Origin: Gammaproteobacteria bacterium
Lineage (GTDB): Bacteria > Pseudomonadota > Gammaproteobacteria > VBWC01
DNA length: 55,325 nucleotides
Direction: 5' to 3'
NCBI GenBank assembly: GCA_023266115.1
Contig: JAHFRU010000018.1
Coordinates: 1 to 55,325 of the forward strand
Part shown: positions 5,626 to 10,330 of the stretch, one piece after another
How the letters are laid out: every line of letters starts with the position of its first letter
How positions within the stretch are numbered: the stretch's first letter is position 1
Notes under the pieces: generated by a model
Told to the model about the DNA's origin: nothing
The model's input: the letters and a program-made list of their open reading frames with translations, nothing else
The model's database searches: none
Program-made: the position numbers and the translations under genes

Positions 5626-6588
5626 TCAGTGGCCATGCCACGACACAGACAACAGCAGGCTGTTGTTGATTCCCTCATGGATGTAACGCTGATAGATCGG
5701 AAACAGCAGCGCCGCGCCGAGATCGAATTCCAGTCCTGTGACAGGATCCCTTAACCCCATGCCCAGCGATAGAAACGCATCGCCGATATGCCCGGGACTG
5801 GCGCCGCTCGATGCAGTCGTGACGTCGAATCCCGGCCCGGTCAGGCCGGTCGTGAACTCGCCCGGGCCCAGCGGCGCGCCAATCATCAGGTGCGGCGTCA
5901 GCGCAAGGCGCGGCGTCAGCGGCTGTTGCGCCTGCACGCCGAAAAATACCGTGACCAGATTGTTCGCACCGCTGTGATCGATATCCCCTTCGGCCCCGGC
6001 GTCCGCACCGGCCAGCAGGCGATAGTGAAACCGGTAGTCCGCCAGCACCAGACGCTCCAGCAGCAGACCGCCGACGTAACCCCAGCGGCGGCTGTCGTCG
6101 TCAAGGTGATCGCGCGTGACCACGACACCGACACCGCTGTGCCGTATGGCGCCCGCCGGCCGGGTAAATTGCGCGCGCTCCGGTATATCGAGCGGCACTC
6201 CCGTCAGGCTGCCCGGGGTCAACGCATTTTCGTAGGCGCTGCCATCGACATCAAAACGGTCATAAAAGCCAAGCACTCCCAGCGCCCCGTTGTTGCCCCA
6301 CGCGCGCGCCAGGCCGATCGCGAACATCTCGCCCGCCGCCTCGGCGAACTCGCCGTCGGGCCTGGCTATACCGAGCTGGACCGCCGGCTGCCAGCGGTCG
6401 GCCCGCAAACCCACATCGGGCAACGGCAACGTGGCGTAGCGCGCTTCCTGCGCCGCCTCGGCCAGGTGCTCGGCGCGAAAATGAATGTCCTCGACCGGCG
6501 GATCGGTGAGCGCGGCGACGGATGCCGCCGCAAAGAACAGCATCAGCAGCGCGGCAGGCAAAGTCCGAACAACGAGCATGTTAACCAT
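5626..6588 (-). CDS. Secreted or outer-membrane protein, possible beta-barrel
   Basis: About 320 residues. The start at 6588 gives a clean signal peptide (LPAALLMLFFAAASVAA), cleavage around residue 27. The mature protein is rich in alternating hydrophobic/polar strands, Gly and aromatic residues (WGYVGGLLLERL, YRFHYRLLAGA, TPRLALTPHLMIGAPLGPG), and ends near an aromatic residue (LLSVSWHGH), as many outer-membrane barrels do. I do not recognise the family. It is followed by the DsbA-like gene in the same orientation but separated by 130 bases, so co-transcription is uncertain. Confidence 0.65.
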   Translation of the reverse strand: MVNMLVVRTLPAALLMLFFAAASVAALTDPPVEDIHFRAEHLAEAAQEARYATLPLPDVGLRADRWQPAVQLGIARPDGEFAEAAGEMFAIGLARAWGNNGALGVLGFYDRFDVDGSAYENALTPGSLTGVPLDIPERAQFTRPAGAIRHSGVGVVVTRDHLDDDSRRWGYVGGLLLERLVLADYRFHYRLLAGADAGAEGDIDHSGANNLVTVFFGVQAQQPLTPRLALTPHLMIGAPLGPGEFTTGLTGPGFDVTTASSGASPGHIGDAFLSLGMGLRDPVTGLEFDLGAALLFPIYQRYIHEGINNSLLLSVSWHGH

Positions 6589-6613
6589 GGGCGGATCGTA
6601 CACGGCGTGTGGC

Positions 6614-7117
6614 CTAGCCTACAATCACCCGTTCCTCTTCCAGATACGCGATAACTTCCTTGCGCGCCACCCGGTACAGCGTCCATTGCTTCAACGGCTT
6701 GGCGCCCAGGTTTTTGTAGAAGCGCCTGGCATTGTGATTGTCGCGATAGACGATGCCGTCGACACGCGGGCAATCGCGCTCGACACTGATTTTCAACACC
6801 TCGTTGATCAGCTGCCTGCCCAGCCCGAGTCGCCGCCTCGCGGGCGTCACATAGATATCCTCAAGGTACAGGCACGGGCGCGCGTGATAGGTCGAATAGT
6901 TGTGATAGAACGCGGCGAACCCGGCCAGCTCGCCATCGACGTAACCGGCCAGAAACTCGATCGCCGGGCGAATGCCGAAGGCATGCTGCTTAAGCCGTTC
7001 GGCAGTCATCTCGAACTCGTCGAGCGCGTCGTCGGCCTCGGCGAGTTCGAGTAATAAAACAGCAATACCGCCGATGTCTCGTTCCGACGCCTTTTCTACG
7101 GTAATTCGACGAGTCAA
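6614..7117 (-). CDS. GNAT family N-acetyltransferase
   Basis: About 167 residues. The acetyl-CoA-binding motif is clear: DIYVTPARRRLGLGRQLINEV (R-x-x-G-x-G), preceded by YLEDIYV and followed by VYRDNHNARRFYKNLGAK, the usual motif B. This order is typical of diamine or amino-acid acetyltransferases (SpeG/ARD1-type). The TTG at 7117 is chosen because GAAGGGAAGAG precedes it and the domain begins right after; an ATG at 7174 is in frame but has a weak ribosome-binding site. The substrate is unknown. Confidence 0.85.
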   Translation of the reverse strand: MTRRITVEKASERDIGGIAVLLLELAEADDALDEFEMTAERLKQHAFGIRPAIEFLAGYVDGELAGFAAFYHNYSTYHARPCLYLEDIYVTPARRRLGLGRQLINEVLKISVERDCPRVDGIVYRDNHNARRFYKNLGAKPLKQWTLYRVARKEVIAYLEEERVIVG

Positions 7118-7471
7118 CTCTTCCCTTCTCCCTGCGACGCTCCGGCTTCCTTCCCGGGCAACTCCCGGCACCATTTCTTACGTTCCAACTATACCTTCAC
7201 GGCGGGACGGCGGGAACCGTTGCGCGACGGCGCGGTCGTCCCGGGGTTCTCCCGGTGTGATCGCCAGGCGGGTCGTCGAGGATGCGCCGGCAACCGCACG
7301 TTCGCAAGCCCGTCGCGCCCGGTAATTTCTCACATTTCCCGGGCAACATTTCTTACAGTCTTTCCTCCCGTTTCGTCGTTAACTCGATGACACAACAGAT
7401 TGGGCCGGCCGTTGCGTGTCGGCCCTGCCATTCACCGACGCCCGCGTCACCGACCACAGGAGAACCGTTCC

Positions 7472-10330
7472 ATGAAACCCGTCCGCCGCAATGTCGCCCA
7501 CCTCAGCCAGGCCGAGCGCGATGCGTTCGTCAACGCGATCGTACAACTCGATACATCGAAGGTTTTCCCGGACGGCGTCTCATACTGGGACAAACAGGAC
7601 CAGATCCACCAGGGCACGCACGTGCACGGCGGAGCGGCATTCCTGCCGTGGCACCGCGAGTTGCTGAACCGCTTCGAGGCAATGCTGCAGGAGGTCGACC
7701 CGAGTGTCGCGCTGCATTACTGGGACTGGACCGAGGACCCGCGTGTGGCGTCGAACGGTTCCGGCGGCACGGTCAACCTGTTCACCGCGACGAACTTCGG
7801 CAGCTCCACCGGCCGCGCCGGCGTGCCGTTCGACAGCTTCGACAATGGCGGAAACTTCGCCGGCAGCCGCAACGATACCGGCAACCCGGTCGATCCACCG
7901 CAGGAGATCAACCGCAACCTCAATGCCGGCGCACCGGGCGTCAACCCGGACAATTTCATTATCACATCGGCCGATGGATTGCCGCAGGCACAACAGTGGG
8001 CAGAGTTCCGCGACGTGCTGGAAAGCTCACCCAACCACAACTCGGTGCACGGCTACTTCGGCAACGGCAGCACCATCAAGGCGTCGCATTCGGCGTTCGA
8101 GGACCCGTTCGTGTTTCTGCTGCACGCCAACATCGACCGGCTGTGGGCGATGTGGCAGATGCAGCCCGGTTACGAATGGCGCCTCGACCCGAGCCAGACC
8201 TATGGCGACGAGACCGGCGACGCGGAAATCACCGAGTATCTCGAACCATGGTCCGGCACCGTGCATTTCGGCAGCCCGGTGCCGCCGTGGGACCCGGGCA
8301 ACCCGGACAACGAGATCGAACTGAAAAACTCGCGCCACCCCACCGTCGTGCAACCACCGTGCTATGACACGCTGCCGGTATCGGTCGAGCTGCAATCGCC
8401 ATCGTCCGGCGCGCCGCTGACCTTCAACGACATCCCCGAAGGCACCGAGACCGTACGCGCGGCGGTGTTTGCGATACGCGCCTGCGAGGACATCACCTTC
8501 GATATCATCGCCGGGCCGGGCGCCGGCTTCGGCACACCGCTGGGCACCGCCGTCACCGTTCACTATAACTCCGGCGCAGCGACCAACGGTTATGTGTGGA
8601 TTTCCTACCAGGGTACGACGGCCGGCGCGGCCGCAGCCGGCAGCGTGACGATACGTTGCAACGAGACCGGCGAGGAGTGGATCATTCCGATCACCGCGAA
8701 CACGATTACCAAGCCCAAGGTCGCGTCCATGCTGGTGCTCGACAAGTCCGGCAGCATGGCCTGGAGCTCGGGTATCCCCGGCGAGACGCGGCTCCAGGTG
8801 CTGAAGTGGGCCGCGCCGCACTTTGTGCATGCGATGGGTAACGACGACGGCATCGGCATCGTCACCTTCGACCATGACGCGTATCCGGTGATGCCGGTGA
8901 CGCCGGCCGGCTCGTTGATGTTCGGCGCCGGCCGCGCCCAGGCATTGAACGCGATCAACCTGCATGACGAGGACGGCGGCGCGACGTCGATCGGCGACGG
9001 CCTCGATCTTGCGCATGCGACGGTAGACCCGGTCGGCGGTTATGATCACAAGGCGCTGATCGTGTTTACCGACGGCCAGGAGAACACGCCACAATACATC
9101 GCCGACGTCGCGGCGATACTCAACGAACGCGTGTTTGCCATCGGCCTCGGCCGTGCCGATCAGCTGGACGTGTCCACCCTCGATACGCTGACCAGCGGTT
9201 CAGGCGGCTACATGGTCATGACCGGCGATCTCGACGTCAACGACCAGTTCCGCCTCAGCAAGTATTTCCTGCAGATACTCGCCGGCGTCACCAACACGGC
9301 CATCGTCGTCGATCCGGAAAGCACGGTGCGGCCCGGGACCAAACATCGCATCCCGTTCACGTTGACCGGCGCCGACACCGAGACCGATATCATTCTGCTG
9401 TCGCCCGACCCGTGGGCGATCGACTTTTATCTGGAAACCCCGGACGGCAAGATTATCACACCCGCCGATGCGGCCATGCTGCCTGCCGTAACCTACGCGA
9501 CCGCCGACACGCTGCATATGTACCGCACGACACTACCAATCCCGGTCGCCGGCGGCAAGGCACACGGCGGCACCTGGCATGCGCTGATTTCGGTCGATAG
9601 CGGAAACTTCAAGAAATATGTGTCGAAGCTGCGCGACAGCAACGTCAGCCGCTGGTCGGCCAGCACCGCGATCCACGGCATTCCGTACAACCTCGGCGTC
9701 TACGCCAAATCGAACCTGCGGTTACGCGCGTCGGTTATCGCCAACAGCCATGAGCCCGGTGCGACGGCGATGCTGCGCGCGGTGCTGACCGAGTCCGATC
9801 TGCCGGTGGATCATCGCGCCGTCGTGCGCGTCGTGATGCGCCGACCGGATGGCACGACCGTTACCGTACCACTGACCGAAGGCGCGGCGGGCGAATTCGA
9901 GCGGCCGGTCATGTTGTCACAGGCGGGCGTATACCAACTGCGTTACCTCGCCACCGGCACGACGCGACGCGGCCAGCCATTCACGCGCGAGGAGCTGCGC
10001 TCGATCGGCATTGCACAAGGCGCCGACACGCCGCGCCCGCGCAAGCCAGACGCACGCGACAACGAGCTGTGCCGGCTACTGTCATGCCTGCTGGCCGACG
10101 AAGGCGCGCTTAAACTGATCGAACGCCTCGGCCTCAACCCGAAACGGCTGCTGGAATGCCTGAAGGAACTGTGCCGCAAGATACAACACGGCGACTCGAC
10201 GTTTACCGGCCGTCCGACGGTGACGCATCCCGTCGCCGCAGGCACGGCATCGCTGGAAGAACTGCGCAAGCTGCTCGTACAACCCGAAGTGCGGGCGATG
10301 ATCAACCGCTTGTCGCGTACCGACAAGTGA
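7472..10330 (+). CDS. Tyrosinase-VWA domain fusion protein
   Basis: A 952-residue protein without an evident signal peptide. Residues 1-300 form a tyrosinase domain: CuA region HVHGGAAFLPWHRELL (His52, His61), YWDWTEDPR, and CuB region HNSVHGYFG (near 190) and FLLHANIDRLWAMW (near 215-228), with the usual D-P-x-x-F-L-x-H pattern. Residues about 420-600 form a von Willebrand A domain with MIDAS motif LDKSGSM, a GGATSIGDGL threonine loop and LIVFTDGQEN. The remainder looks like Ig-like beta domains and a helical tail. AGGAG precedes the ATG. The 297-base spacer upstream (7175-7471) has no gene; TTCCCGGGCAAC is repeated at 7151-7162 and 7336-7347. Confidence 0.9.
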   Translation: MKPVRRNVAHLSQAERDAFVNAIVQLDTSKVFPDGVSYWDKQDQIHQGTHVHGGAAFLPWHRELLNRFEAMLQEVDPSVALHYWDWTEDPRVASNGSGGTVNLFTATNFGSSTGRAGVPFDSFDNGGNFAGSRNDTGNPVDPPQEINRNLNAGAPGVNPDNFIITSADGLPQAQQWAEFRDVLESSPNHNSVHGYFGNGSTIKASHSAFEDPFVFLLHANIDRLWAMWQMQPGYEWRLDPSQTYGDETGDAEITEYLEPWSGTVHFGSPVPPWDPGNPDNEIELKNSRHPTVVQPPCYDTLPVSVELQSPSSGAPLTFNDIPEGTETVRAAVFAIRACEDITFDIIAGPGAGFGTPLGTAVTVHYNSGAATNGYVWISYQGTTAGAAAAGSVTIRCNETGEEWIIPITANTITKPKVASMLVLDKSGSMAWSSGIPGETRLQVLKWAAPHFVHAMGNDDGIGIVTFDHDAYPVMPVTPAGSLMFGAGRAQALNAINLHDEDGGATSIGDGLDLAHATVDPVGGYDHKALIVFTDGQENTPQYIADVAAILNERVFAIGLGRADQLDVSTLDTLTSGSGGYMVMTGDLDVNDQFRLSKYFLQILAGVTNTAIVVDPESTVRPGTKHRIPFTLTGADTETDIILLSPDPWAIDFYLETPDGKIITPADAAMLPAVTYATADTLHMYRTTLPIPVAGGKAHGGTWHALISVDSGNFKKYVSKLRDSNVSRWSASTAIHGIPYNLGVYAKSNLRLRASVIANSHEPGATAMLRAVLTESDLPVDHRAVVRVVMRRPDGTTVTVPLTEGAAGEFERPVMLSQAGVYQLRYLATGTTRRGQPFTREELRSIGIAQGADTPRPRKPDARDNELCRLLSCLLADEGALKLIERLGLNPKRLLECLKELCRKIQHGDSTFTGRPTVTHPVAAGTASLEELRKLLVQPEVRAMINRLSRTDK

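Follow-up and report, generated by a model that had tools for sequence, protein, structure and literature searches.

The described proteins nearest in design to the one reported here are the CLCA proteins (calcium-activated chloride channel regulators), which are very patchy in prokaryotes and share with it a plan in which an N-terminal enzyme is followed by a VWA domain with a MIDAS and by beta-sandwiches. Lenart et al. (2013) described the CLCA architecture with its head replaced by an M10 or a CHAP peptidase, in Teredinibacter and Methanosarcina (PMC3650047), and the VWA domains of CLCA1 and CLCA4 use the MIDAS to act on their target channels (PMC11231702). In addition, a LodA-like protein joined to a VWA domain was noted in 2015 in Amycolatopsis vancoresmycina and Cryptosporangium arvum, where it was left unexplained and its tail was not linked to other enzymes (PMC4417212). 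The bacterial tyrosinases compared here are MelC2, which comes with a caddie protein, and the Verrucomicrobium/Burkholderia type, which carries a C-terminal blocker. In the open-licence literature, we found no earlier report of a tyrosinase-VWA fusion or of one tail common to several enzymes; the enzyme-VWA-sandwich plan itself is known from CLCA.

The protein is encoded in the window, a stretch of 55,325 nucleotides from a Gammaproteobacteria bacterium (GenBank assembly GCA_023266115.1, contig JAHFRU010000018.1), and its features are collected in Table 1. An earlier note, made from the sequence alone, had read it as a tyrosinase and a VWA domain with an intact MIDAS in one 952-residue frame, and this reading holds. 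Pfam places Tyrosinase (PF00264) at residues 39-230 (E 2.6e-27, 97.1 bits against a cut-off of 22.6) and VWA_2 at residues 420-536 (E 1.7e-13), with no further domain type; the six histidines and the five MIDAS residues are present; and a same-genus genome encodes an uninterrupted protein of identical length with 95% identity. The start of the ORF is backed by the AGGAGA that lies just upstream of it. Comparison with the same-genus copy gives a dN/dS of 0.117 overall, 0.069 for the head and 0.094 for the tail; both halves of the protein are under purifying selection. A misread frame is ruled out by the same ORF in the second genome (95%), by the dN/dS of 0.12 and by full-length relatives in other phyla, while a singleton or an assembly artefact is ruled out by the fusion's presence in the named isolates Lentzea terrae, Tessaracoccus bendigoensis, Cellulomonas cellasea, Haloarcula and Microvirga. 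Chance or frame error is thus excluded as the source of the fusion.

Table 1. Features of the tyrosinase-VWA gene and its product, in window coordinates.
Feature	Residues	Position	Strand	Basis
Shine-Dalgarno-like AGGAGA		7458..7463	+	8 nt 5' of the ATG
Whole gene, 952-aa tyrosinase-VWA fusion		7472..10330	+	one uninterrupted frame, 952 codons
Tyrosinase head	1-298	7472..8365	+	Pfam PF00264; PDB tyrosinase and hemocyanin matches
CuA site	H46, H52, H61 (H50 = alternative first ligand)	7607..7654	+	alignment of 17 heads
CuB site	H189 (then Asn), H193, H218	8036..8125	+	alignment of 17 heads
Predicted pre-VWA beta-sandwich	~302-414	8375..8713	+	AlphaFold strands, mostly pLDDT 80-90; homologous in S8, M14 and LodA fusions
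VWA domain	415-606	8714..9289	+	Pfam; structural match to CLCA1 VWA
MIDAS	D424, S426, S428, T505, D534	8741..9073	+	DxSxS, distal T and distal D, all intact
Two predicted post-VWA beta-sandwiches	~607-850	9290..10021	+	AlphaFold; matches to 4kh9 and 6wpx; homologous on S8, M14, LodA and M64 fusions
Predicted helical hairpin, twin CX4C (C867, C872, C896, C901)	~860-905	10049..10186	+	AlphaFold and cysteine inspection
C-terminal extension, fast-evolving/variable	909-952	10196..10327	+	dN/dS 0.25, dS >1 vs same-genus copy

Judged from the alignment of the window head with 16 others, the N-terminal part is a type-3 copper tyrosinase domain with all six copper-ligand-type histidines. In one of the relatives (L064), a changed loop leaves the second CuA histidine unaligned. 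In the tyrosinase family, an asparagine after the first CuB histidine is compatible with monophenolase activity. The copper core and its six histidines are shared with MelC2 and with the Verrucomicrobium/Burkholderia type; unlike these, the window protein has no Tat signal and no adjacent caddie, and a VWA tail of 600 residues takes the place of the short blocker. Its score against the MelC2 tyrosinase model NF047834 is 86.4 bits, below the equivalog cut-off of 450, and a search of the window sequence for an upstream caddie gene found no small ORF ending at the start codon. AlphaFold models the head poorly (mostly pLDDT 35-75), with the tyrosinase at residues 1-230 followed by a low-confidence linker to 300. 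The same head clade includes leaderless proteins of a Variovorax plasmid (L027:6983-9052, FG-GAP-like repeats) and a Rhodococcus plasmid (L028:6983-8728, ricin-type repeats), whose C-terminal binding-type modules are unrelated to the VWA tail of the window protein. At three other loci (L021, L022 and L023), the head occurs alone, with no tail.

For the tail, an AlphaFold model built with 16 sequences is good over residues ~302-850. The mostly high values there (pLDDT 80-92) bear out the Ig-like C-terminal domains proposed in the earlier note, which had missed both the beta-sandwich ahead of the VWA and the helical four-cysteine hairpin. The VWA of CLCA1 (6pyo) matches that of the window protein with a Z of 20.8 over 151 residues and an rmsd of 1.7. 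The two predicted beta-sandwiches lie behind the VWA, where CLCA has a beta-sandwich (DUF1973) and an FnIII domain, and they match no Pfam or NCBIfam model in the set searched, which was without PF09315 (DUF1973). Folded alone, this part finds its best PDB matches in 4kh9 (Z 13.8, rmsd 3.9, 197 residues), which is Legionella NttD, a type II-secreted protein (PMC6617341), and in the C-terminal part of the lipase BlEst2 (6wpx; Z 13.5, rmsd 3.4, 175 residues). Similarity of fold does not by itself prove function. The fold search is dominated by VWA matches, the CLCA sandwich is absent from the PDB chains found, and for CLCA the PDB search turned up structures of the VWA only. As for the hairpin, its cysteines would fit two antiparallel disulfides or a metal site; the outer pair, 867 and 901, is missing as a whole from Haloarcula and from the Caballeronia M14 protein, both of which keep 872 and 896.

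Set against CLCA, the window protein has an extra beta-sandwich ahead of the VWA, and N-terminally Pfam finds only Tyrosinase where CLCA has the CLCA_N zincin head. It reaches 33.8 bits with the CLCA full-length model TIGR00868 (cut-off 900.85), through the VWA part only, and outside the VWA it matches no CLCA model. On three counts, namely its head, its TIGR00868 score and the absence of a signal peptide by hydropathy, the window protein falls short of CLCA membership. It is also below the cut-off of the marine sortase-target VWA model TIGR03788 (13.1 bits against 551.65).

The full tyrosinase-VWA architecture was found at 12 further loci, in gamma-, beta- and alphaproteobacteria, Actinomycetota and one haloarchaeon. 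The carriers are a gammaproteobacterial MAG, a Rhodocyclaceae MAG, Lentzea, Tessaracoccus, Cellulomonas, the genome G035, plasmids of Haloarcula and Microvirga, two more Lentzea-family genomes, one Burkholderiales-order genome and one Tessaracoccus-family genome; the set examined thus numbers 13 with the window, one more locus (L070) being left out. The earlier note had called the fusion unusual, and no relative with a described function was found. The tail is rare. Among sampled genomes, it occurs in at least 1 of 398 in the window's phylum, namely that of the window itself, in at least 1 of 296 in the Tessaracoccus phylum, again the genome of the query, in at least 5 of 249 in the Lentzea family and in at least 4 of 147 in the Tessaracoccus family. 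These counts are minima, since the large searches scored only a few candidates in each genome. Phage records hold no match to the window protein, and viral contigs give only distant VWAs. Lentzea terrae has a second, headless tail piece that starts within the VWA (L052 ~6538-7911, minus strand), probably a decayed copy.

The tail is found on other enzymes as well. Residues ~299-850 of the window protein (beta-sandwich, VWA, two beta-sandwiches), often followed by the helical twin-CX4C hairpin, recur on an M14 carboxypeptidase, an S8 subtilase, an M64 zincin and a LodA-type oxidase, several of these fusion partners being known from single genomes. The match in Caballeronia insecticola, which covers residues 314-899 only, is the tail on an M14 carboxypeptidase. 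In Tessaracoccus bendigoensis, an S8-tail and an M14-tail gene lie side by side on the same strand (L051:6673-12469), with the tyrosinase-tail gene elsewhere; its M14-tail protein ends after the VWA, and an S8-tail gene is also present in a second Tessaracoccus-family genome. The LodA-type oxidase-tail gene (L059) adjoins a gene for a LodB-like flavoprotein. Its product, a protein of the kind noted in 2015, has the same tail as the window protein; the LodA-type fusion has a quinoprotein head, a LodB-type partner and a degenerate MIDAS, whereas the window protein has a tyrosinase head and an intact MIDAS.

Given that the common VWA alone could explain such matches, a separate model of each domain was made using tyrosinase-linked proteins alone and then searched against the other-head proteins and 300 shuffled sequences. 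The pre-VWA model matches the S8 (E 3e-24), M14 (5e-22), LodA (1.6e-5) and M64 (0.04) proteins, and is weak only for the last; the VWA model gives E values of 4e-72 to 1e-20; and the post-VWA model gives 1.8e-69 for S8, 4.4e-54 for M14, 2.2e-50 for LodA and 1.7e-25 for M64. The tyrosinase head model has no match among the other-head proteins, and none of the shuffled sequences scored. These matches show the tail to be one homologous unit on five enzyme classes (tyrosinase, M14, S8, M64 and LodA). Despite the changes of head, the MIDAS is intact in 17 of the 18 tails examined; it is degenerate on the LodA-linked tail, and hence metal binding is not universal among the tails.

The histories of heads and tails also differ. 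Relative to the window protein, the heads of Lentzea, Tessaracoccus and Cellulomonas are 57-62% identical and their tails 39-40%, while G035 has a head of 32% and a tail of 43% identity. The head tree splits deeply into a 'VRRN' clade, which includes the window, and a 'CRK' clade; the groups tested on the tail tree were named from this head tree. In AU tests, a single clade of all tyrosinase-linked tails is rejected (p 0.006), as is one clade of the VRRN-linked (clade-A) tails including L064 (p 0.007); the CRK-linked tails together (p 0.16) and the VRRN tails without L064 (p 0.125) are not rejected. Outside its own close relatives, the window tail groups nearest with the Caballeronia M14-linked tail, with 87-91% bootstrap. 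As judged from these trees, which disagree, the tail is shown to have swapped heads during evolution.

Three CRK-clade tyrosinase-VWA genes, those of Haloarcula, Microvirga and G035, are each preceded by a leaderless ORF of 66-84 aa that ends at the tyrosinase start (L024:6794-6994, L025:6741-6995 and L004 ~958-1185). All three align with one another (GHEIV...L.IDG...Y) and match no Pfam family; they may possibly represent a new caddie or copper-loading family.

We favour, at roughly even chances, the view that the window protein joins a head that oxidises phenols or tyrosine to a portable tail for docking. The VWA would bind a partner protein in the manner of CLCA1 and CLCA4, via a metal ion held by its MIDAS, and docking would hold the copper centre beside a protein or peptide substrate, the tyrosines of which would be turned into DOPA or quinone. 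Since it sits on unrelated enzymes, the tail looks like an interchangeable docking part and not a tyrosinase-specific one. We count in favour of docking the one tail on five classes, the conserved MIDAS and the purifying selection on both halves, and against it the lack of a recurring partner gene, the degenerate MIDAS linked to LodA and the poorly modelled head. All five head classes act on amino-acid side chains or peptide bonds. A broader version, in which the tail is a head-agnostic chassis that aims unrelated protein-modifying enzymes at one kind of partner or structure, perhaps extracellularly by way of a leaderless route, is put forward tentatively and seems doubtful to us.

The main rival to docking, and one that is not mutually exclusive with it, makes the tail a latency or folding pro-domain that covers the active site or aids copper loading until proteolysis, as in the tyrosinases of Verrucomicrobium, plants and fungi. 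Consistent with this, window-type genes have no upstream caddie, like tyrosinases with C-terminal blockers (PMC10526336), and the post-VWA sandwiches resemble the C-terminal part of BlEst2. However, the blocker of Verrucomicrobium consists of just one small beta domain, and a 600-residue tail with a conserved MIDAS exceeds what a blocker needs; moreover, a specific blocker is expected to co-evolve with its head, yet one tail serves five folds. We consider a pro-domain role unlikely.

Hydropathy reveals no signal peptide, transmembrane stretch or hydrophobic N-terminus in the window protein, in agreement with the earlier note. As a signal peptide is recognisable in none of the members examined, the protein would work inside the cell, or leave it by lysis or by a route other than Sec or Tat. 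This bears on that note's idea of matrix cross-linking, taken here as an adhesin-oxidase that is exported and cross-links proteins of the matrix or the surface. VWA domains of pilus adhesins and of the mussel byssus protein PTMP1 are indeed among the structural and sequence neighbours, and the paired tail cysteines hint at disulfides. Nevertheless, many of the VWA neighbours are non-adhesive, no membrane anchor is seen and cross-linking is hard to reconcile with heads that are peptidases, so that we hold an adhesin-oxidase to be improbable. The protein-binding half of the note's interpretation stands, with the MIDAS conservation, as the best reading of the VWA; matrix cross-linking is left unsupported, there being no export signal and no matrix protein found co-encoded with the window gene. 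Evidently, a tail that is also carried by peptidases is specific to neither oxidase nor matrix.

What looked like a one-off oddity becomes a testable family of five unrelated enzyme classes with one tail, and the ligand of any one tail would help to explain all of them. The CLCA-type architecture, with its peptidase heads and chloride-channel regulation, now takes in copper and quinone oxidases from both bacteria and archaea, and the five-class tail suggests enzyme-VWA tethering as a general solution. Should the chassis version be true, the tyrosinase form would be a targeted protein-tyrosine oxidase; in any event, natural tyrosinase fusions are on offer for targeted protein oxidation.

The genomic surroundings name no ligand for the tail, as no partner gene recurs beside fusions of different lineages. 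The window gene is on its own, with a divergently oriented GNAT gene beside it and MotA/MotB-type genes downstream, and an operon with a substrate gene was accordingly dropped; its other neighbours are EptA, DsbA-like and EamA genes. A promoter scan at the gene found nothing, and a terminator scan was at background. One could also see heads and tail as an inter-bacterial or anti-host effector, with the tail serving in delivery or target recognition. The patchy distribution, the several copies on large plasmids, the leaderless proteins and the adjoining S8-tail and M14-tail genes of Tessaracoccus would agree with this, but the neighbours examined include no recognisable gene for secretion systems, immunity or defence, and PADLOC gave no defence match for the window protein and was silent save for a generic subtilase model on the S8 head. 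An effector role is thus very improbable in our view.

Individual loci have neighbours of their own. A MoxR-type AAA+ ATPase gene (L016:6595-7617, minus strand) is divergent from and adjoins the Rhodocyclaceae tyrosinase-VWA gene; because it is absent from the other loci inspected, a MoxR-VWA chaperone pair was dropped. In two Lentzea-family genomes, a glyoxalase-like (PF13468) gene lies directly 5' of the tyrosinase-VWA gene (L061:6353-7213 and L062:2340-3017). The Caballeronia M14-tail gene adjoins one for a leaderless 706-aa protein with the zincin motif HEIGHAMGLVH, weakly Reprolysin/M10-like (L053:6480-8600, minus strand), and the start of the M64-tail gene is overlapped by 14 nt by a 150-aa ORF with no Pfam match (L060:7193-7645). 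Finally, a divergent tyrosinase-VWA protein (L072:6316-9480) has a His-rich C-terminal stretch (HDHG..HDEHGHEHHDHD..HDHDGGGHEH) that possibly binds metal.
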